Positions 21,626 to 33,166 of a DNA stretch of 37,159 nucleotides are shown here, piece by piece. The notes beneath the pieces were generated by a model, which saw only the letters and a program-made list of their open reading frames with translations, ran no database searches and was not told where the DNA came from. The translations under genes and the position numbers were made by a program. Source of the DNA: Rhodospirillaceae bacterium. GTDB lineage: Bacteria; Pseudomonadota; Alphaproteobacteria; Puniceispirillales; Puniceispirillaceae. The DNA lies in contig WTIL01000004.1 in assembly GCA_011522725.1 (NCBI GenBank), forward strand, positions 3,220-40,378, given 5' to 3'. Position 1 is the first letter of the stretch; each line of letters begins with the position of its first letter.

Positions 21626-21949
21626 TCAGGCGATGCTGCTGGTGATCCAGGCTTCCAGTTGCGACTTCGGCACCGCGCCGATCTTCTCGGCGACAACCTC
21701 GCCACCCTTGAAAATCAGCAGGGTGGGGATGCCGCGCACATTATATTGCTGCGGCGTCAGCGGATTCTCGTCGATGTTCAGCTTGACGATCGAAATGGCA
21801 TCGCCATGCGCGTCGCTCAGCTCTTCAAGAGCCGGGCCGATGGCCTTGCAGGGCCCGCACCATTCCGCCCAGAAATCAACAAGCACGGGCTTTTCCGCCT
21901 GAAGTACGTCAGTGGAAAAATCGCCGTCGGTTGTCTTGATCGTTGCCAT
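21626..21949 (-). CDS. trxA: Thioredoxin 1
   Basis: A 107-residue thioredoxin, the general disulfide reductase. The active site is WCGPC with Cys31 and Cys34, preceded by VLVDFWAE. The cis-proline is in VRGIPTLLIFKGGE and the C-terminal helix is KSQLEAWI. It has no signal peptide, so it is cytoplasmic. It lies 78 bases after the AddBA gene; addA-trxA adjacency is conserved in alphaproteobacteria. Confidence 0.96.
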   Translation of the reverse strand: MATIKTTDGDFSTDVLQAEKPVLVDFWAEWCGPCKAIGPALEELSDAHGDAISIVKLNIDENPLTPQQYNVRGIPTLLIFKGGEVVAEKIGAVPKSQLEAWITSSIA

Positions 21950-22027: not shown

Positions 22028-25000
22028 TCAACCCAGCGCCAGCGCCGCAAGTGCCGCATCTCTGGCGGCGCGGTCAATTTCCTCGACGGAGCGGTCTTCC
22101 GTCCAGACAAGCCAGGTCACAACCTCGCGATCAGGATAGATCTGCTCCAGCAGGGCGGCATAGAGCGCCATCTGCCGATGGTAGTCCGCCGGCGTCACCG
22201 ATGGCCGCGCCCCGGTCTTGAAATCGGCAACGATCACATTCGTCTCATCCACCAGCAGCCTGTCAATCTGACCGGCGACCCCTGCGCCGTCCACCGCTCC
22301 GGCGACCGACACCTCGGCCATCGCCGACAGGCTGAAGACAGGCGCCAGTTCCGGCATGGCCATCACCACACGGACTTCTGCCGCCAGTGCCGCCGCTTCC
22401 TCCTCCGGAACGTCCTGGTGCGATGCCAATACAAGTTTTTCCACATGTGAACGGTCCGCTTCGGCAACCGAAGGCAGCACCTCGAACAGCTTGTGGGCAA
22501 GCCTGCCACGCGCCAGCGCCGCCGAGGCCCCGCCGATCCTGAGACCGGGCGCACGTGCGCCGGCCGCCCTGCCGTCAGGCTGCGATGGACGCAATGGCCG
22601 TGGCGGTCGCGGCTCGTCCGGCGCGCGGGCGAACAGCCATTCCGGCACAGCCCGGGTTTCGGCCACCCCTTCGGCAACAGGCGGCGGCGCGATCATATCG
22701 TCGATGGATTCCGGCACATCACCTGCCACTTCATCGATGCGGACAATGCCCTCATCGTCGGTTGCCGCGCCCTCCATGCCGTTGATGGCCGCCGCAAGTC
22801 CCTCATAATGGCTTCCTTCCAGCGTCCGGCTGCTCTTCGACTGCCAGCCGCCGATCACAATGCCGTCACGGGCCCGGGTCAGCGCGACATAGAGAAGACG
22901 GTTCTCCTCCTCCTCCCGCCTCGCCTTTGCCGCATCTCGCGCGGCAGTGACAAAATCGGGACGCAGCGTTCCCGGGGCCCAATAGACAAATCCGGTCTCT
23001 GGGTCGCGGACAAGCTGGTCGGGCCTTGCGGAGCGCGGTTTCAGCATGTCGGGCAGCACCACCACCGGCGCCTCAAGACCCTTGGCGCCATGGATTGTCA
23101 TCACCCGCAACTCATTGCCGCTGCCGCCATCCATGTCGCGCCGCACTTCGCCGCCACTGCCCCGCACCTGCGCCAGAAAGGCGGTCAGCGATACCCCGCC
23201 TGCCGTCCCGAACGCCTGTGCAAGGCCTAGGAAGTGATCGAGCGTTTCGTCCACCGCCGGGCCAAGCCGGCGGCGGAATTCCTGTCGTGTCTCGATCAGC
23301 ACGCTGCTGTAGAACCCGAAGACCGAGGATTCATCGGCAAGCCGCCGGTACCGGCTGAGGGTATCGGCATACATTCCAAGCGCGCTGTCGGCGCCCGCAT
23401 GCGCCATCAGCCGGGCATGAAGGCTGCGATTGCCACGGCCATGGGCAAGGGTGAACAGTGTTTCCTCGTCGATCCCGAAGAGCGGCGACTTCAGCAGTGC
23501 TGCCAGTTGCAGATCATCTTCGGGAAGGCACACCACATCGCCAAGCGCCAGCAGGTCCTGGATCTCGATCTGGTCCTCCAGCGTCATCCTGTCGGCGCCC
23601 GCCACCGGAATGCCGGCCTGTTGCAACGCCGCCAGCAGCAACCGGTGATAGCGCCCGCGCGAGCGCAGCAGCACCATGATGTCTCCTGGCTGCATCATCC
23701 GGCCCGACGGCAGGGCACGCTTGCCGATCCAGCCGGCGATGCTCGTTGCGACCCGTGCCGCCGACAGGGCGGCGGCATCACGCGGCTGGCTGATTTCCGG
23801 CGGGGCAAAGGCCGGCGGGTCGGCAGGCGCCTCCTCCTCGGAAACGATCGGCCAAAGCTCGACAAAGCCGCCGGCATCCCTCCGCGCCGACCTGTGGTCC
23901 TGAAATTCGGAAATCCGGGCGTCGGTGATTCCGGCAAGGTCCGGCACCGCGCGGTTGACCAGCTCCAGAACGGGCCGTGCCGAACGGAAGGACACGTCGA
24001 GCCCGACCTCGCGCCATGGCGCGCGCAACATGTCGGCGCGCGATGCAAGGTCGACACGGTTGCTTCCCATCACCGCCGGGTCCGCCCCCTGAAAGGAATA
24101 GATCGACTGCTTGAAATCACCGACGACGAACAGGGTACGCGGCCCGGACTCATTGTCATTGGCATCCGCCCCGGCCTCGAAGAACTCGTCACTCAGCCGC
24201 CGCAGAAGCTGCCATTGCGCGGGACTGGTGTCCTGCGCCTCGTCGAGGAGCATATGGCGAATGCCGTTATCGAGCTTCCATCCAACCCACTGGGCGGCAT
24301 CGCCGTCGGCGAGCATGTCGTTTGTCAGCCGGATCAGATCGTCGTAATCGAGCAGCCCGCGCTGGGTCTTCAGCGCGCGGTACCGCTCCTGATAGGACCG
24401 GCCGAATGCATACAGCGCGTTTGTCAGCTCGTAACAGCGGTGCGCCGCCTGTGCTGCCAGCATACCGGACAGCGCCTGCTGCGCCGCCTGCTGTACGATG
24501 ACGACATTCGGGAAATCGGCGCGGATATCCTTGTTAGACAGGTTTCTTTCGGCAAGCGGGGCCAGCTCGTTCGTGAACAGCGCATCGACAAGCCTGTCGA
24601 TATGGCTGCGCCGTCCCTCCTCATCCTCGCCAAGCCAGGCTGTCATCCTGGACGCACGCTTCACCTGGCCGGCAACGCCGCTTTCCGCAAGCGCCGTCGC
24701 GACGGCGCGGATTCCCTCGATATCCAGATCGCCTATGACCCCGGCCAGCATCTCCTGCGGATCCCTCTCCGGATCGAACCCGCGGTCTTCGACAAAATGC
24801 GCGCGCAGCTGCTGCATCATATCGGGGGATGCCAGCCGCTCCTCCTTCTTCAGCAGCTCGTCCAGAATGGCCTCGGCATTGCCTTCAGAGGTCTGCGCCG
24901 CGATCAGCCCGATCATCGTCACCAGCGCCGGGTCAGCCGACCGAAGAAGGGCCTCGCGCGCCTCGGCCTTCAGGCGCGCCTGTTCGAATTCATCAGCAAG

Positions 25001-28000
25001 TTCAGATTGCGGCACAATACCAGCCTCGATCGGAAACCGGCGCAGCACCGACTGGCAGAACGAATGCACTGTCTCCACACGCGGGCCGTCATCATTGTCA
25101 AGAATCTCGGCAAACAGGCTGCGCGCGCGTTGCAGCATGGCCTGTGACGGCGTGCCGATCCCCATTCCGGCAAGATCGGCCAGCAGTGCCTCTGCTGTCG
25201 AAACCGTCCATTTCGCCAGCATCGCCGAGATCCGGTTGCGCATCTCTGCGGCCGCAGCACGGGTATAGGTGACGCACAGGATGCTGTCTGGCGGCGCCCC
25301 GTCCAGCATCAGCCGCAGCACACGGTCGGTCAGCAGCTTGGTCTTCCCCGTCCCGGCATTTGCCGAGACGAACACCGAGGATGCCGGGTCGGATGCCGCC
25401 GCCTGCCGCCTTGAGGCGTCGACAGACACCGCCGGATCGAAATCCGGGCGATGCGGCGCCGCGGGCTGGATCGCACCTCCGTCCATGCCGGCCAGCGCCG
25501 CGCCATTCTCGGCGATGCGCCACTCATCCACCCGCGCCAGATGGTCATAACGCGGGAAAGACGGGCCAATGGCCGGGTCCGGCCGGCTGGCATAGGGCGT
25601 GGCTTCACTGTCGAAATCCGCTGCCAGCCGCGCCAGCATCGCGGCGTCCTCGGCCGCGGACCAGCCTTCGGGCCGCACATCGGTCTGTTTGCCCGGCTCG
25701 CCGCGCCGGCCTGTCAGGCGCCAATATTCCATCTGGGTCACATCATCGGCGTCGATCCCCTCGAAGCCGCCATGCGCCGCAATGACCGCCTCGACAAGAA
25801 GCTGCGTGCGGCGGCGGCCGGCGACCTTGGCCTTGGACGGCGTCTCGCCGGTCTTGTAGTCGAGAACGGCGAGCCCGCCACCGGCGAGCCTGTCGATCCG
25901 GTCGGCCCGCGCGCCAAAGGTCACGTCACCGGCCGGTGCGGCCAGATCAATGCTGCCCTCGACCTCGGCATGGCTTGTCTCGATGCCGGCGCGGCGGCGG
26001 GTCTCGGTCTCGATGAACCATGCCGCGATGGTCTCGAAGGCGGGCCACCAGAAATGGCGGATGGTCGGGTGCTGCCAGTGCGGGTCAAACACGGCGCGCG
26101 CCAGCGACCGGAGTTCGGCAAGCGCATTGTCCGGAAGCGGACCCTCCGGAAAGGCCCGCAGGAACGCCGCCAGCGAGTCATGCACCAGATTGCCGCGGAG
26201 CGCCGCATCGATCGGCCGGTCCAGATCGTCCTTCGGGCGCAGCTCCAGAACACGCTTGGCGTAGATCGAATAGGGGTCGGCGATCCAGTCATCGATCTCG
26301 GTGGCGGAAAAGCTGCGGGGCCGCGCATCGACCGGCGGCGTCGGACAGGGGCGCGGCAACGGCGCCATCGGCGGGGCCGGAAGCAGCGCCGTCAGCTGGT
26401 CACGCCATCGCTGACCCCGATCGACTGCGGCGGTGATGCTCAGCGCCTCGGCCACGGCATCGAACCGCTGGCGCCAGCGGCTCGGCGTGGTGACGGCATC
26501 GCCGTCGCGCAGGGCGCGGGTGATGATCACCTCGGGCGCGCAGGACGCCATCCACACATCATGCGCGCTCAATCCGGTCCGCCAGTTATGCGGCTGCAGC
26601 CCGGCCGTGTGGCGCATCTCGGCATTGGTCCAGGGGTCGACCTCCGGCCGTGGTGGCCAGTTGCCCTCGTTGAACCCGCCAAGGATCAGGCGGTCGGCGC
26701 TTTGCATGCGCGCCTCGACAGGGCCGAGGATGGCCAGACGCGGATGGGTCTGCCAGGCCCGGCGGACCGTTTTTCCGGCAAGAAGCTGCGACAGGATTCG
26801 CGGGAAACTGTCACGGTCCGTCTCGAAACCGCTTCCCTGTTCGGCAAGAGACGCCAGAAGCAGCGCAGCGGCCTCGCCATCCTCGCCAGTCCACAGATGC
26901 ACAGCGCCGTCCGCTGCATCCGGCGTTCCATCTTCGCTGGTCGCCTGCGCCGCCATCTGCTCCGCCGCATCGCCAAGCGCCCTTGCCAGCGCGGCAAGGT
27001 CCGGTGCCATCATCTGCCATGCCTCGACCAGGCCGGCGAGTGGCATGGCAACCGAGGCTTCGAAAAATTCGGCAATATCGGCATATCTGGCTTTGCTGGC
27101 GAGCTTGCGACGAATGCCGTCGAGGCCGGCGCCTGGCCGGTACCCTCGGAAAGCCGCCATCTCGAGCTGCCGAACCCGCTCGCGAAAGGCCAGCGGCGAA
27201 ATGCCTCCGGATGCAAGGGGATGCTTCAGGAAGGCAAGGGTCGGCACCGGCGCGAAGTCGGCCGCCAGCATGGCGACAAGACTTTCCAGATAGCCGCCGG
27301 ACGGACATTGCGACAACGGCCGGCCGGCAGAATCATCCACCTCGATCCGCCAGCGCTGCAGCGCCGCGATCACCGCCTCGGCAAGCTGCCTGTCAGGCGT
27401 CACCAGCGCGGCTGTCCGGCCGGGTCGTTCCAGCACCTCGCGCATGGCAAGGGCGATGACCGACGCCTCGTCGGACCGTGTTTCACAATCAACGAAGGAC
27501 AACCCGTCAAGCGCGTCGCGACCAAGCTCGGGTTGGGTCGCGCCAAGCTGCCGCCAGTCAGCCGTCAGCGCCGCCGGCTTGAACACCTCGCGCATCAGCG
27601 CACGCCGCCGCGCGCTGATCTCCCCGCCGCCGGCAAGATCGGGCCAGTCGCGCACCGCCTCCGGCGTCACCGCCAGGCTGTCGAGCAGAACCGACAGCTG
27701 GTGCTGCGGATGGCCGGATTCCTCGCGCACCAGATCCCAGTGTTCCGCCGCCCCCCGATCCAGCCCCGGCAGCACGACATGCCCGTCCGGCAGGTCGGCA
27801 ACGGCGGCGATCAGTTCACGCGTGGCGGCAAAGGTACCGGTCGATCCGGCGACCACCACCAGCTCTTCGGGCGGATGGTCGCGCCACAGCCGGCAGCGCA
27901 GCCGGACAAGCCTGTTGCGCCTGTCGGCGGCGTCGATCACACCCTGCTCTTCAAGGATGGCAGGCCAGCGGTCGATCAGGATGGTCAGCAGTTTCAGTAT

Positions 28001-28495
28001 GTCCTGCCAGTGCCGTGAAAAGCGGTCGGGCAGAAGCTCGGGAAGAAGCTCCGGCGTCGCATCCGCATTGCAGAGGGAATCAAGAAGCCGGCCCAGCGAC
28101 TCGGCAAGCTGCATGGCCTGCGGCTGGGTCGGCGCCACGTCGCCGAGGCGAAAACCACGAAGCAGACGCGCCAGCCACAGCTGACGCCGCAAGGGGTCCA
28201 TCGCCGGCGGCAGGTCGGGCGCATAGGCGGCAAAGGCCAGCAGGTCGGGCGCATCCTCCTCGACATCGCCGATCGGGTCGATCCGCGGCAACAGGGCGGC
28301 ATTGTCGCCGCCAGCTTCCAGAAAGGCCGCGCGCAGGGCCTGGGCGGCGCGGCGTGACGGCACCAGCACGGTGGCACGCGCCAGCGCTTCCGGGCTGCCG
28401 GCCATGTGTCTGATGCCGGTGGCGAGTGAAACGGCGAAAGGAACGCCGGCAGGAATGGTGTAGAGCCGCTGGTCGCGGCGGGTCGGCGACGTCAT
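22028..28495 (-). CDS. addBA: Fused AddB-AddA helicase-nuclease (double-strand break repair), single 2155-residue frame
   Basis: One uninterrupted frame encodes what are normally two proteins. Residues 1 to about 1003 are alpha-type AddB: a degenerate helicase part (LVPSRRAAQALR, ILGPVEARMQSADRLILGG) and a PD-(D/E)xK nuclease with Asp865, Asp879 and Lys881 (LDYKTG). Residues from about 1004 are AddA: Walker A ANAGTGKT (1045-1052), Walker B DEAQD (1418-1422), QSIYSFQGAD, MTIHGAKGLE, LLYVALTRARDG and a second nuclease with Asp2078, Asp2091 and Lys2093 (ADFKTG). The enzyme resects double-strand ends for RecA. Both parts have normal lengths, so nothing appears lost. The junction is a polar, Pro/Ala-rich linker. 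Met1004 (ATG at 25486) could be a separate AddA start, but no ribosome site precedes it. GAGGC precedes the chosen ATG. It lies between tsaE and trxA, the usual addB-addA location. Confidence 0.92.
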   Translation of the reverse strand: MTSPTRRDQRLYTIPAGVPFAVSLATGIRHMAGSPEALARATVLVPSRRAAQALRAAFLEAGGDNAALLPRIDPIGDVEEDAPDLLAFAAYAPDLPPAMDPLRRQLWLARLLRGFRLGDVAPTQPQAMQLAESLGRLLDSLCNADATPELLPELLPDRFSRHWQDILKLLTILIDRWPAILEEQGVIDAADRRNRLVRLRCRLWRDHPPEELVVVAGSTGTFAATRELIAAVADLPDGHVVLPGLDRGAAEHWDLVREESGHPQHQLSVLLDSLAVTPEAVRDWPDLAGGGEISARRRALMREVFKPAALTADWRQLGATQPELGRDALDGLSFVDCETRSDEASVIALAMREVLERPGRTAALVTPDRQLAEAVIAALQRWRIEVDDSAGRPLSQCPSGGYLESLVAMLAADFAPVPTLAFLKHPLASGGISPLAFRERVRQLEMAAFRGYRPGAGLDGIRRKLASKARYADIAEFFEASVAMPLAGLVEAWQMMAPDLAALARALGDAAEQMAAQATSEDGTPDAADGAVHLWTGEDGEAAALLLASLAEQGSGFETDRDSFPRILSQLLAGKTVRRAWQTHPRLAILGPVEARMQSADRLILGGFNEGNWPPRPEVDPWTNAEMRHTAGLQPHNWRTGLSAHDVWMASCAPEVIITRALRDGDAVTTPSRWRQRFDAVAEALSITAAVDRGQRWRDQLTALLPAPPMAPLPRPCPTPPVDARPRSFSATEIDDWIADPYSIYAKRVLELRPKDDLDRPIDAALRGNLVHDSLAAFLRAFPEGPLPDNALAELRSLARAVFDPHWQHPTIRHFWWPAFETIAAWFIETETRRRAGIETSHAEVEGSIDLAAPAGDVTFGARADRIDRLAGGGLAVLDYKTGETPSKAKVAGRRRTQLLVEAVIAAHGGFEGIDADDVTQMEYWRLTGRRGEPGKQTDVRPEGWSAAEDAAMLARLAADFDSEATPYASRPDPAIGPSFPRYDHLARVDEWRIAENGAALAGMDGGAIQPAAPHRPDFDPAVSVDASRRQAAASDPASSVFVSANAGTGKTKLLTDRVLRLMLDGAPPDSILCVTYTRAAAAEMRNRISAMLAKWTVSTAEALLADLAGMGIGTPSQAMLQRARSLFAEILDNDDGPRVETVHSFCQSVLRRFPIEAGIVPQSELADEFEQARLKAEAREALLRSADPALVTMIGLIAAQTSEGNAEAILDELLKKEERLASPDMMQQLRAHFVEDRGFDPERDPQEMLAGVIGDLDIEGIRAVATALAESGVAGQVKRASRMTAWLGEDEEGRRSHIDRLVDALFTNELAPLAERNLSNKDIRADFPNVVIVQQAAQQALSGMLAAQAAHRCYELTNALYAFGRSYQERYRALKTQRGLLDYDDLIRLTNDMLADGDAAQWVGWKLDNGIRHMLLDEAQDTSPAQWQLLRRLSDEFFEAGADANDNESGPRTLFVVGDFKQSIYSFQGADPAVMGSNRVDLASRADMLRAPWREVGLDVSFRSARPVLELVNRAVPDLAGITDARISEFQDHRSARRDAGGFVELWPIVSEEEAPADPPAFAPPEISQPRDAAALSAARVATSIAGWIGKRALPSGRMMQPGDIMVLLRSRGRYHRLLLAALQQAGIPVAGADRMTLEDQIEIQDLLALGDVVCLPEDDLQLAALLKSPLFGIDEETLFTLAHGRGNRSLHARLMAHAGADSALGMYADTLSRYRRLADESSVFGFYSSVLIETRQEFRRRLGPAVDETLDHFLGLAQAFGTAGGVSLTAFLAQVRGSGGEVRRDMDGGSGNELRVMTIHGAKGLEAPVVVLPDMLKPRSARPDQLVRDPETGFVYWAPGTLRPDFVTAARDAAKARREEEENRLLYVALTRARDGIVIGGWQSKSSRTLEGSHYEGLAAAINGMEGAATDDEGIVRIDEVAGDVPESIDDMIAPPPVAEGVAETRAVPEWLFARAPDEPRPPRPLRPSQPDGRAAGARAPGLRIGGASAALARGRLAHKLFEVLPSVAEADRSHVEKLVLASHQDVPEEEAAALAAEVRVVMAMPELAPVFSLSAMAEVSVAGAVDGAGVAGQIDRLLVDETNVIVADFKTGARPSVTPADYHRQMALYAALLEQIYPDREVVTWLVWTEDRSVEEIDRAARDAALAALALG

Positions 28496-28564: not shown

Positions 28565-29044
28565 TCACCCCATTTCGGCAGCCAGTTTGCCAAGCTGCTG
28601 CTGCCAGCGCGCACCGCCGGAAAGTCGCGCCACCCTGCGCTCGGGCGCCGACGGGTCTGGCTCCAGCGTGATGCGAAGCGCATTTCGCGGCAGCCATGGC
28701 CCCAGCCGCTCCGGCCATTCGACCAGACAGACAGCATCGACGAAGGCATCCTCGATGCCCAGATCAAGCGCCTCTTCCGGCGCCTCGAGCCGGTAAAGAT
28801 CAAAATGCATGACCGGCGGCCCGTCATCTGGCTCATAGGTCTGCACAAGAGTGAAGGTCGGGCTGGGAATGTCGGCCTCATGCGGGCAGAGCGAGGTGAC
28901 GATGCCGCGCGCCAGCACGGATTTTCCGGCACCGAGCGGGCCCGACAGGGCCACGACGTCACCCGCGCGAAGCAGGCCGGAAAGGCAAAGGCCCAGCCGC
29001 GTGGTCGCGGCCGGGCCCTCCAGTGTCAGGTCTAAGTCGCTCAT
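28565..29044 (-). CDS. tsaE: tRNA threonylcarbamoyladenosine biosynthesis ATPase TsaE
   Basis: A 159-residue P-loop ATPase that supports TsaB/TsaD in making t6A37 of tRNAs. The Walker A is GPLGAGKS (35-42), followed by the family segments SPTFTLVQTYE and MHFDLYRLEAPEEALDLGIED and the VEWPERLG motif. It begins 19 bases after ahcY and ends 69 bases before AddBA. In many alphaproteobacteria an amgK-murU pair lies between tsaE and addB; here there is no room for it. Confidence 0.93.
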   Translation of the reverse strand: MSDLDLTLEGPAATTRLGLCLSGLLRAGDVVALSGPLGAGKSVLARGIVTSLCPHEADIPSPTFTLVQTYEPDDGPPVMHFDLYRLEAPEEALDLGIEDAFVDAVCLVEWPERLGPWLPRNALRITLEPDPSAPERRVARLSGGARWQQQLGKLAAEMG

Positions 29045-30458: not shown

Positions 30459-30542
30459 CGAAGAACTCGCTTGTGTGATGAATTTGTGCGGACGGGATAG
30501 CAGATATCATGCCATATGGAAACCCGCTTGCCTGAAGATGCG

Positions 30543-31418
30543 TCAGCGCGTCGCCTCGAGCTCGCGATGGGTGCTTTCCACGTCGTAACCCTCGGCAGCC
30601 AGCCACGCCGCAACCGTTTCCACCGCCCAGACCGAACGGTGCCGGCCACCGGTGCAGCCAAAGGCGATTGTCATCAGCGGCCGGCCTTCGCGCGTCATCC
30701 GCGGCAGCATCTCTGCCAGGATTCCCTTGAGCGAAGATACGACACTGGAAGCCGCCTCATCCGCCTGCAGGAAGGCCGCGACCGGTTCGTCACGTCCGTC
30801 AAAGCTGCGCAACTCTGTGACCCAGTAGGGATTGTCGGCAAAACGCATATCGATGACGAGATCGCTATGGTCGGGAATGCGGCGGCGATAGGAAAAGCTG
30901 ATCAGGCGAACATTCACCTGAAAATCATCCGCCATGCCCAGCTTCGACAGAAGCGCCTGCCTGAGGTCGGACGGTTTTGCACCGCTGGTATCGATATGGA
31001 GATCGGCAAGCGGCGCCACCTTTTCCATTCGGTCCAGATCAGCGGAAATGGCATCGGCGAGCGACATGGCTCCGTCATGAAGCGGGTGCTGGCGCCGTGT
31101 GGCATTGAACCGCCTGAGCAGGTCATCATGCGATGCCGTAATGAACACCGTGGTGAACCTGTCACCGAATTTCTTGCGCAGGTTGCGGACAAGCGTTTCC
31201 GTCGTCTCCGCCGAAAACCCTGTTGTGCGCGCATCAAGGCCCATCGCAAGGCTGCGCCGACCGGTCTCCACCTCGAGCGCGACAAGGGTGTCGATCATGG
31301 CAAGCGGCAGGTTGTCGACGGCGTTGATCCCGCTATCCTCAAGGATGTCGAGCGCGGTCGACAGCCCGGCGCCCGACGCGCCTGTGACGAGGATCAGTCT
31401 TTGCCTGCCATCATTCAT
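30543..31418 (-). CDS. rapZ: RapZ-family RNase adapter with altered Walker A motif
   Basis: A 291-residue RapZ (YvcJ/YhbJ) protein. In enterobacteria RapZ senses glucosamine-6-phosphate and guides RNase E to the GlmZ small RNA; the role in alphaproteobacteria is unclear. Family segments are ILEDSGINAVDNLPL, FITASHDDLLRRFNATRRQHPL, the C-terminal ISFSYRR, DMRFADNPYW and the very conserved AFGCTGGRHRSVWAVE. The N-terminal P-loop reads GASGAGLST (13-21): the nucleotide-binding lysine is replaced by Leu19 (codon CTG). Nucleotide binding by this site is therefore doubtful, while the C-terminal sensor domain looks intact. It lies between chvG and ahcY, where hprK and PTS genes are usually interleaved. 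Confidence 0.92.
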   Translation of the reverse strand: MNDGRQRLILVTGASGAGLSTALDILEDSGINAVDNLPLAMIDTLVALEVETGRRSLAMGLDARTTGFSAETTETLVRNLRKKFGDRFTTVFITASHDDLLRRFNATRRQHPLHDGAMSLADAISADLDRMEKVAPLADLHIDTSGAKPSDLRQALLSKLGMADDFQVNVRLISFSYRRRIPDHSDLVIDMRFADNPYWVTELRSFDGRDEPVAAFLQADEAASSVVSSLKGILAEMLPRMTREGRPLMTIAFGCTGGRHRSVWAVETVAAWLAAEGYDVESTHRELEATR

Positions 31419-31486
31419 GAGGCCACCTTACCAACTGTGGCCGGCATATTCCAAACGCCATTGCCATCCGCGCGGATTGCCTCTGC

Positions 31487-33166
31487 TCAGGCCTCGCCGT
31501 CGGCAAGCGGCAGCGTCAGGGTGAAGCGGGCGCCGTCATTGTTGGCGGCTACCAGCTCGCCGCCATAGCCGCGCGCGATCTGCTGCGCGATCGAAAGTCC
31601 AAGGCCGGAATGTTCGCCAAAGGCCTCTCCGGCGGGACGTTCGGTATAGAACCTGTTGAAAACTTCCTCGAGGCGCCCGGGCGGAATGCCGGGACCGCGG
31701 TCCTGCACCGCCAGTTCAGCCTTGCCTTGTTCGTTGATGCCGAGATGGAAGCTGATCTGCGAGCCCTGCGGTGCAAAAGACACCGCATTGCCGAGCAGAT
31801 TGTCGAGAATCTGGACAATACGGCCATCCTGAACCGTCACATGAACCGGCATATCGGCCAGATCGGCGACAAGCTCGTGCGTGTCGGTTGTCGTGCGGCG
31901 CGCCTCGACAAAACTGGCGACAAGGTCGCGAAGATCGAGAGTGGCAGCGAATTCGGTCGCCATCTCGTTATCGACGCGGCTGGAGCGCGAGATATCCGTA
32001 ATCAGCCTGTCGAGACGCGATACATCCCGCAGAATGACATTCATCAGTTTCTGCTGCTGCTCCGGATCGGAAATCCTGCTGATCGTCTCTGCAGCGCTGC
32101 GAAGCGAGGATAGCGGGTTCTTGAGCTCGTGGGCCACATCCGCCGCGAAGCCTGCGGTCGCCGCCATCCTCTGCTGCAGCTCGTCCGTCATGTCGATCAG
32201 TGATTCGGACAGTTTGCCGATTTCATCACGCCGGCGCGGCAGCCGCTTCATGCGGGTCGACAGATCACGACTGCGCCGCAGATTGTCGGCTTCCGAGGCA
32301 AGGTAGGTGATCGGGCCGGTGATAGAGCGCGCCAGCCATACGCTGAGCGCGATCGTGATCAGCGTGACAATGCCGAAGAGCTGGATGAAGACCACATTCA
32401 CCTCGGCGATCTCCTCTTCGATCTTGCCGCCGCTGATGCTGACCATCAGCGCACCACGGACAAGGCGAAGGTCCTGAATGGGCACGGCGACCGACAGCAC
32501 GATGCGGCCGCGCGTATCCTGCCTGAGCTGGCGCGCCGGTTCGCCCGCCAGCGCCAGAACCACTTCGTTGTAATCCCCTGCCTGCTGCCGTTGCCGTTCA
32601 CGATAGAGCGGCAGGGTCATGTCGTTGCCGATCATGCCGGCGGCGCGGCGCATGCCGGCCTGAAAGTAATCCGATGCTCTCTTCCAGGCCCCTCGCCGGG
32701 CGCGACGCCGGATTTCCGCCCGACCGGCACCATTGCGCGCGGTATCGGCAAGCAGCCTTCCGTCATGGCGGAAAACCCGGGCCCGCAAATCGGTGCCGTA
32801 GCCGACAAGCGGCAGCAGGTGGTTCATGGTTTCCGGCGACAGGCGCCGGCGTGCCAGGCCGCCGTCGATATCGGACTGGGCCAGCGCCAGCGAGCGCGCC
32901 AGCGTAAAGCCCTGGCGTTCAAGCGCGGTGAATTCCGACTGGATCAGTGTCGTCCTGTACTGGTCGATCGAGAACAGCCCGACAAAGAACAGCACCAGCG
33001 GAAACATCATGATGGCCATGATGCGGGTGCTCAGACGGCTCAGGCGGAAGCGCAGTCTGACAAGCGGCCTGCCGATGGCAGCCCGCCCGAGAACCCGTCT
33101 GATCCGTGATTTGATCCCGTCGATCACGCTGACCCCGCCAATATGGGTATCACACAGCCGCGCCAT
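31487..33166 (-). CDS. chvG: ChvG-type sensor histidine kinase
   Basis: A 559-residue membrane kinase. A first membrane helix near residues 50-68 (MAIMMFPLVLFFVGLFSI) and a second near 258-276 (LFGIVTLITIALSVWLA) enclose a periplasmic sensor domain. A HAMP region follows (SITGPITYLASEADNLRRSRDLS), then the H-box FAADVAHELKNPLSSLRSA with phospho-acceptor His346, and the ATPase N, G1 and G2 boxes (QILDNLLGNAVSFAP, DRGPGIPPG, GLGLSIAQQIARGYGG). ChvG/ChvI responds to acid and envelope stress in related bacteria. It starts 14 bases after chvI. hprK, which commonly follows chvG, is not there. ATG 33166 is the longest plausible start; a shorter one is possible. Confidence 0.92.
   Translation of the reverse strand: MARLCDTHIGGVSVIDGIKSRIRRVLGRAAIGRPLVRLRFRLSRLSTRIMAIMMFPLVLFFVGLFSIDQYRTTLIQSEFTALERQGFTLARSLALAQSDIDGGLARRRLSPETMNHLLPLVGYGTDLRARVFRHDGRLLADTARNGAGRAEIRRRARRGAWKRASDYFQAGMRRAAGMIGNDMTLPLYRERQRQQAGDYNEVVLALAGEPARQLRQDTRGRIVLSVAVPIQDLRLVRGALMVSISGGKIEEEIAEVNVVFIQLFGIVTLITIALSVWLARSITGPITYLASEADNLRRSRDLSTRMKRLPRRRDEIGKLSESLIDMTDELQQRMAATAGFAADVAHELKNPLSSLRSAAETISRISDPEQQQKLMNVILRDVSRLDRLITDISRSSRVDNEMATEFAATLDLRDLVASFVEARRTTTDTHELVADLADMPVHVTVQDGRIVQILDNLLGNAVSFAPQGSQISFHLGINEQGKAELAVQDRGPGIPPGRLEEVFNRFYTERPAGEAFGEHSGLGLSIAQQIARGYGGELVAANNDGARFTLTLPLADGEA

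Follow-up and report, generated by a model that had tools for sequence, protein, structure and literature searches.

A single reading frame encodes AddB and AddA

The window analysed here is a stretch of 37,159 nucleotides (nt) from a Rhodospirillaceae bacterium of the family Puniceispirillaceae (contig WTIL01000004.1), and it carries on its reverse strand, at positions 22028–28495, an open reading frame of 2155 codons that we refer to as addBA. The gene is flanked upstream by tsaE (28565–29044, reverse strand; PF02367, TIGR00150) and downstream by trxA (21626–21949, reverse strand; PF00085, TIGR01068), and ahcY, a further neighbour, lies on the same strand as both. Between ahcY and a gene for a ChvG-like sensor kinase we noted a 350-codon frame on the forward strand (30516–31568) that neither Pfam nor NCBIfam matched; it overlaps a frame of 291 codons on the opposite strand and may be non-genic.

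Translation of the window showed that the addBA frame starts with ATG, contains zero internal stops and encodes a product with a calculated mass of 233.9 kDa. The AddB half (residues 1–985; 25541–28495, reverse strand) consists of a helicase-like N-terminal part and a RecB-family nuclease, the latter matched by PDDEXK_1 (PF12705) at residues 729–952 in Pfam, and hmmscan against NCBIfam assigned residues 10–993 to the AddB equivalog TIGR02786 with 865.5 bits against a cut-off of 486.5. The AddA half (residues 1025–2155; 22031–25423, reverse strand) comprises a UvrD-type helicase and a C-terminal nuclease; residues 1030–2137 scored 945.8 bits with the AddA equivalog TIGR02784 (cut-off 860.75), and Pfam placed UvrD-helicase at residues 1029–1476 and also matched UvrD_C. 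Between the two halves lies a linker (residues 986–1024; 25424–25540, reverse strand) that is predicted to be disordered at about residues 981–1015 and holds no conserved internal start.

The initial annotation had read this locus as AddB and AddA joined in one 2155-codon frame, and the start codon, the absence of stops and the two equivalog scores bear that reading out. The catalytic residues that it named were likewise found in place, namely D865/D879/K881 of the D...DxK nuclease motif in the AddB half, D2078/D2091/K2093 in the AddA half and the AddA Walker A motif ANAGTGKT at residues 1045–1052 (25340–25363, reverse strand). The AddA half additionally carries Walker B and other UvrD helicase motifs (LLDEAQD, GDFKQSIYSF, HGAKGLE and LLYVALTRA), and the nuclease and helicase motifs are conserved in 16/16 aligned fused proteins. 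Our scan for start codons and Shine-Dalgarno (SD) sequences also agreed that the in-frame Met1004 is preceded by no SD-like sequence. Two separately translated subunits, which are usual for alphaproteobacterial AddAB and lie outside the family-model criteria, are not what addBA encodes, because it is a single frame lacking an internal start that bears a ribosome site.

The fusion is conserved throughout the genus and absent from its sister genera

The AddB-AddA junction lies inside one open frame in 11 of the 12 genomes of the window's genus, at 61–97% identity to the window. Eight of these, the window's included, contain complete addBA frames of about 2160 codons without a stop, the seven other complete copies being 61–80% identical to that of the window; in the remaining three (G007, G009 and G011) the junction is crossed in an open frame and the gene is cut by contig ends, the G007 copy being 92–97% identical to the window. 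No addBA copy was found in the twelfth genome, G005, an assembly that is 58% complete. Among the remaining 49 genomes of the family (SAR116-type), no match spanned the junction in an open frame, and AddB and AddA are separate frames wherever both are present. Candidatus Puniceispirillum and a genome labelled SAR116 are among the split relatives, and this relationship places the window's organism in or near the SAR116 clade. The initial annotation had allowed for the fusion being confined to a single assembly; it is instead genus-wide, with sister genera that are split.

Within the genus, dN/dS was 0.11–0.19 for AddB, 0.11–0.19 for AddA and 0.33–0.54 for the linker, values that are approximate because synonymous sites are near saturation. 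By these estimates both halves of addBA are under purifying selection, and the linker, of about 35 residues, is fast-evolving; it also varies in length.

Several further observations were made during these searches. In G255, G394 and G118, long frames that contain AddB proved on checking to be chance extensions and were rejected as fusions, and a search for a viral homologue of the AddB-AddA junction found none. Genomes G026–G040, which belong to two other families of the window's order (f3 and f4), gave weak UvrD-type matches or none, that is, no AddAB. One genus member carries a second AddA-like fragment, 45% identical, at a contig end (G009:C25:62-352), possibly on a contaminant contig (the assembly has 3% contamination).

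The ancestral stop and start codons have been replaced by an insertion

We compared the distance from the conserved EW near the C-terminus of AddB to the AddA Walker A motif. It measures 88–127 nt in split family members, in every case 1 mod 3, against 168–201 nt and 0 mod 3 in the fused genus (the spacing of 138 nt in L007 was taken from a later EW located in the linker), an excess of typically about 60 bases over the nearest split relatives. In these nearest relatives the stop of AddB and the start of AddA overlap or directly adjoin, and the AddA ATG lies 28 codons before Walker A and is preceded by a 4–7-nt SD match; the fused genus lacks that ATG at the ancestral position, and its SD matches are 0–4 nt and unconserved. 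The start and SD comparison covers the nearest split relatives. Most likely, an ancestral overlapping addB-addA pair was joined through about 60 extra bases of frame-shifting length, and these bases replaced both the AddB stop codon and the initiation signals of AddA, its start codon and its ribosome-binding site.

Fused addBA genes occur in two further lineages

Our survey for fusions covered the Alphaproteobacteria and a sample of Pseudomonadota. Among the matches listed in a class-wide scan of 385 genomes with the AddB model were frames of 2162 and 2453 codons, both in lineage f38, a family whose order has no other family in the genome collection. Within f38 the junction lies in one frame in 12 of 16 genomes, including the two-contig genome G299, and is split in none; AddAB is absent from the other four. 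Three of these four (G461, G465 and G466) contain RecB-like frames of 1253–1274 codons (for example L074:355-4017), and the frame that was checked, in one AddAB-less genome, is a RecB over the cut-off, so that in the f38 members that lack AddBA the fused enzyme seems to have given way to RecBCD. In G468 the fused gene (C16:104713-109841) is broken into three frames, by decay or sequencing error.

We then searched three overlapping samples with a profile of the fused junction, namely the 385-genome class sample, a further class sample of 388 genomes and 398 genomes from the phylum; this added just one fused lineage, a two-genome genus (G844 and G960) whose sister genera are split. The linker of this third lineage is built of Ala-Thr-Pro and Gly, as an ATP repeat and Gly6, and in G844 it contains ATLATPTTPATPATPAPVATPAQPASANSGGGGGGATP. 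Members of all three fused lineages match both equivalog models over the cut-off. The initial annotation had implied that the arrangement might be unique; the recurrence of AddB-AddA fusion in two unrelated lineages contradicts this.

In the AddA tree, the window's genus (100% SH-aLRT) falls within the SAR116 family, f38 is placed elsewhere and the third lineage stands beside its split sister genera, a topology that requires three changes. An AU test rejected a single ancestral fusion for the window's genus and f38 (p 1.8e-10), and a second rejected one clade of the second and third fused lineages (p 0.0019), both being based on a quick tree under LG+G4. Together, the tree and these tests support separate origins of the fusions.

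AddBA is very likely a natural single-chain helicase-nuclease

An AlphaFold2 model of residues 701–1560 has a mean pLDDT of 88.2, mostly over 90 in both domains, and the linker, at pLDDT 44–58, is predicted to be disordered; with a pTM of 0.67, the relative placement of the halves is not fixed by the model. By fold, the AddB nuclease domain matches Bacillus subtilis AddB (3u4q_B, Z 15.9), and for the AddA half the matches are UvrD-type helicases, AddA and RecB among them. The genus yielded neither a second AddAB nor a RecB: against the RecB equivalog TIGR00609 (cut-off 696) no protein of the genus scored above the cut-off, the best matches being the fused gene itself, at 161–162 bits, and also sub-threshold UvrD-like proteins. 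The genus therefore probably has no RecBCD/AddAB-type enzyme other than AddBA.

We consider it very likely that AddBA is a natural single-chain AddAB helicase-nuclease, created by a replacement of stop and start with about 60 bases and assembled in cis at 1:1. A natural fusion, as the initial annotation had suggested, is favoured by the character of the linker, the disappearance of AddA's own start and ribosome site, the intact motifs and the purifying selection on both halves. Translation from the AddB start would yield one chain of about 234 kDa, in which the AddB scaffold and nuclease are followed by a disordered linker some 35 residues long and then by the motor helicase and nuclease of AddA; the halves would fold separately and then dock in cis like two-chain AddAB, the stoichiometry of 1:1 would be set by the gene itself, and the enzyme would unwind and cut broken DNA ends, readying them for RecA. 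The fixed 1:1 chain with two nucleases proposed in the initial annotation is supported by the frame, its conservation and the motifs; we infer that the chain stays intact in the cell, that its halves dock in cis and that it has the normal activity of AddAB, any response to Chi included. The biochemistry ascribed here to AddBA is drawn entirely by homology, and the solved AddAB structures that we found are all from B. subtilis.

Among other explanations, the one that survives best, improbable as we judge it, is that AddBA is a polyprotein that is cut in the linker, the working enzyme being an ordinary AddA-AddB heterodimer. A linker that is predicted to be disordered, evolves fast and varies in length would be accessible to proteases, but we found no conserved linker sequence suggesting a cleavage site, either within the genus or between lineages, and the ATP-repeat/Gly6 linker of one lineage is typical of a permanent tether; on cleavage as such, the sequence evidence is nearly silent. 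Somewhat less probable still is that AddA is additionally made alone, through internal initiation of translation in the fused frame. Candidate codons do exist in the linker, such as Met1004 and, in several genus members, a GTG that precedes Walker A by 25 codons. However, they are not conserved across the genus, the ancestral AddA start position has been lost, and their SD matches of 0–4 nt compare poorly with the 4–7 nt at the fixed ATG of the nearest split relatives.

That the fusion is an artefact of assembly or sequencing was rejected, and we give it almost no credence: the window's assembly is fragmented, at 86.5% completeness, but the same arrangement recurs across assemblies and lineages, in other assemblies of the genus, in most genomes of the second lineage, G299 among them, and in both genomes of the third. 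An error of the indel type would not turn up repeatedly beside conserved flanks, with both halves under selection. It is equally hard to credit that the fused gene is decaying with loss of function, as the disrupted copy in G468 and the four second-lineage members without AddAB might suggest, since the window's genus shows strong purifying selection on both halves, intact motifs and no RecB replacement.

Discussion

The enzyme described here is of a known kind; the new part is its single-chain architecture and repeated origin. AddBA resembles the two-gene AddAB of Alphaproteobacteria in both proteins, in the addB-then-addA order and in the catalytic motifs, and differs from it in being one chain with a linker whose AddA has neither its own start nor a ribosome site. 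For B. subtilis AddAB (3u44, 3u4q and 4cei), chain A is similar in fold to the AddA half and chain B to the AddB nuclease. The B. subtilis enzyme consists of two chains, AddBA of one. B. subtilis AddB also carries a four-cysteine iron-sulphur cluster, which residues 700–1000 of the AddB half cannot hold because they contain a single cysteine, Cys717. RecBCD is composed of three separate chains, of which RecB is related to the AddA half by sequence and fold, with AddBA scoring far below the RecB cut-off. Mycobacterial AdnAB, with fold matches between AdnB and AddBA, is also a helicase-nuclease with two nucleases, and is made of two separate chains that each have their own helicase-type and nuclease domains. 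In the open-access literature that we searched we found no description of a natural AddBA fusion, and a comparative survey from 2005 makes no mention of one (PMC1193525).

Tentatively, and with somewhat less than even confidence, we propose that AddBA is constitutively single-chain and that the advantage of tethering in cis explains its three or more origins among the Alphaproteobacteria. If so, the advantages could include a fixed stoichiometry and the avoidance of subunit exchange, whether after Chi or when breaks recur. Work on AddAB and RecBCD has treated them as machines of several subunits, and a question that still stands is whether these subunits need to separate, for instance once Chi has been recognised; AddBA would then allow a natural test of the role of subunit exchange or disassembly in AddAB. 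That the tether has been retained throughout a genus and, independently, in an order suggests that natural selection tolerates the covalent linkage. For expression, structural and single-molecule work, AddBA would offer a ready-made single-gene AddAB.

The junction comparison points to one clear route to fusion, in which an overlapping stop and start are replaced by a frame-changing insertion. Elsewhere in the class, in G147, G943, G877, G256, G152 and Nisaea (L125) among others, AddB and AddA lie in one frame with a single stop between them, and such lineages, one mutation away from fusion, may represent a second possible route. The single-stop arrangement, with the AddA start just after the stop, was seen in several unrelated lineages (L097, L099, L100, L125, L223, L226 and L242).
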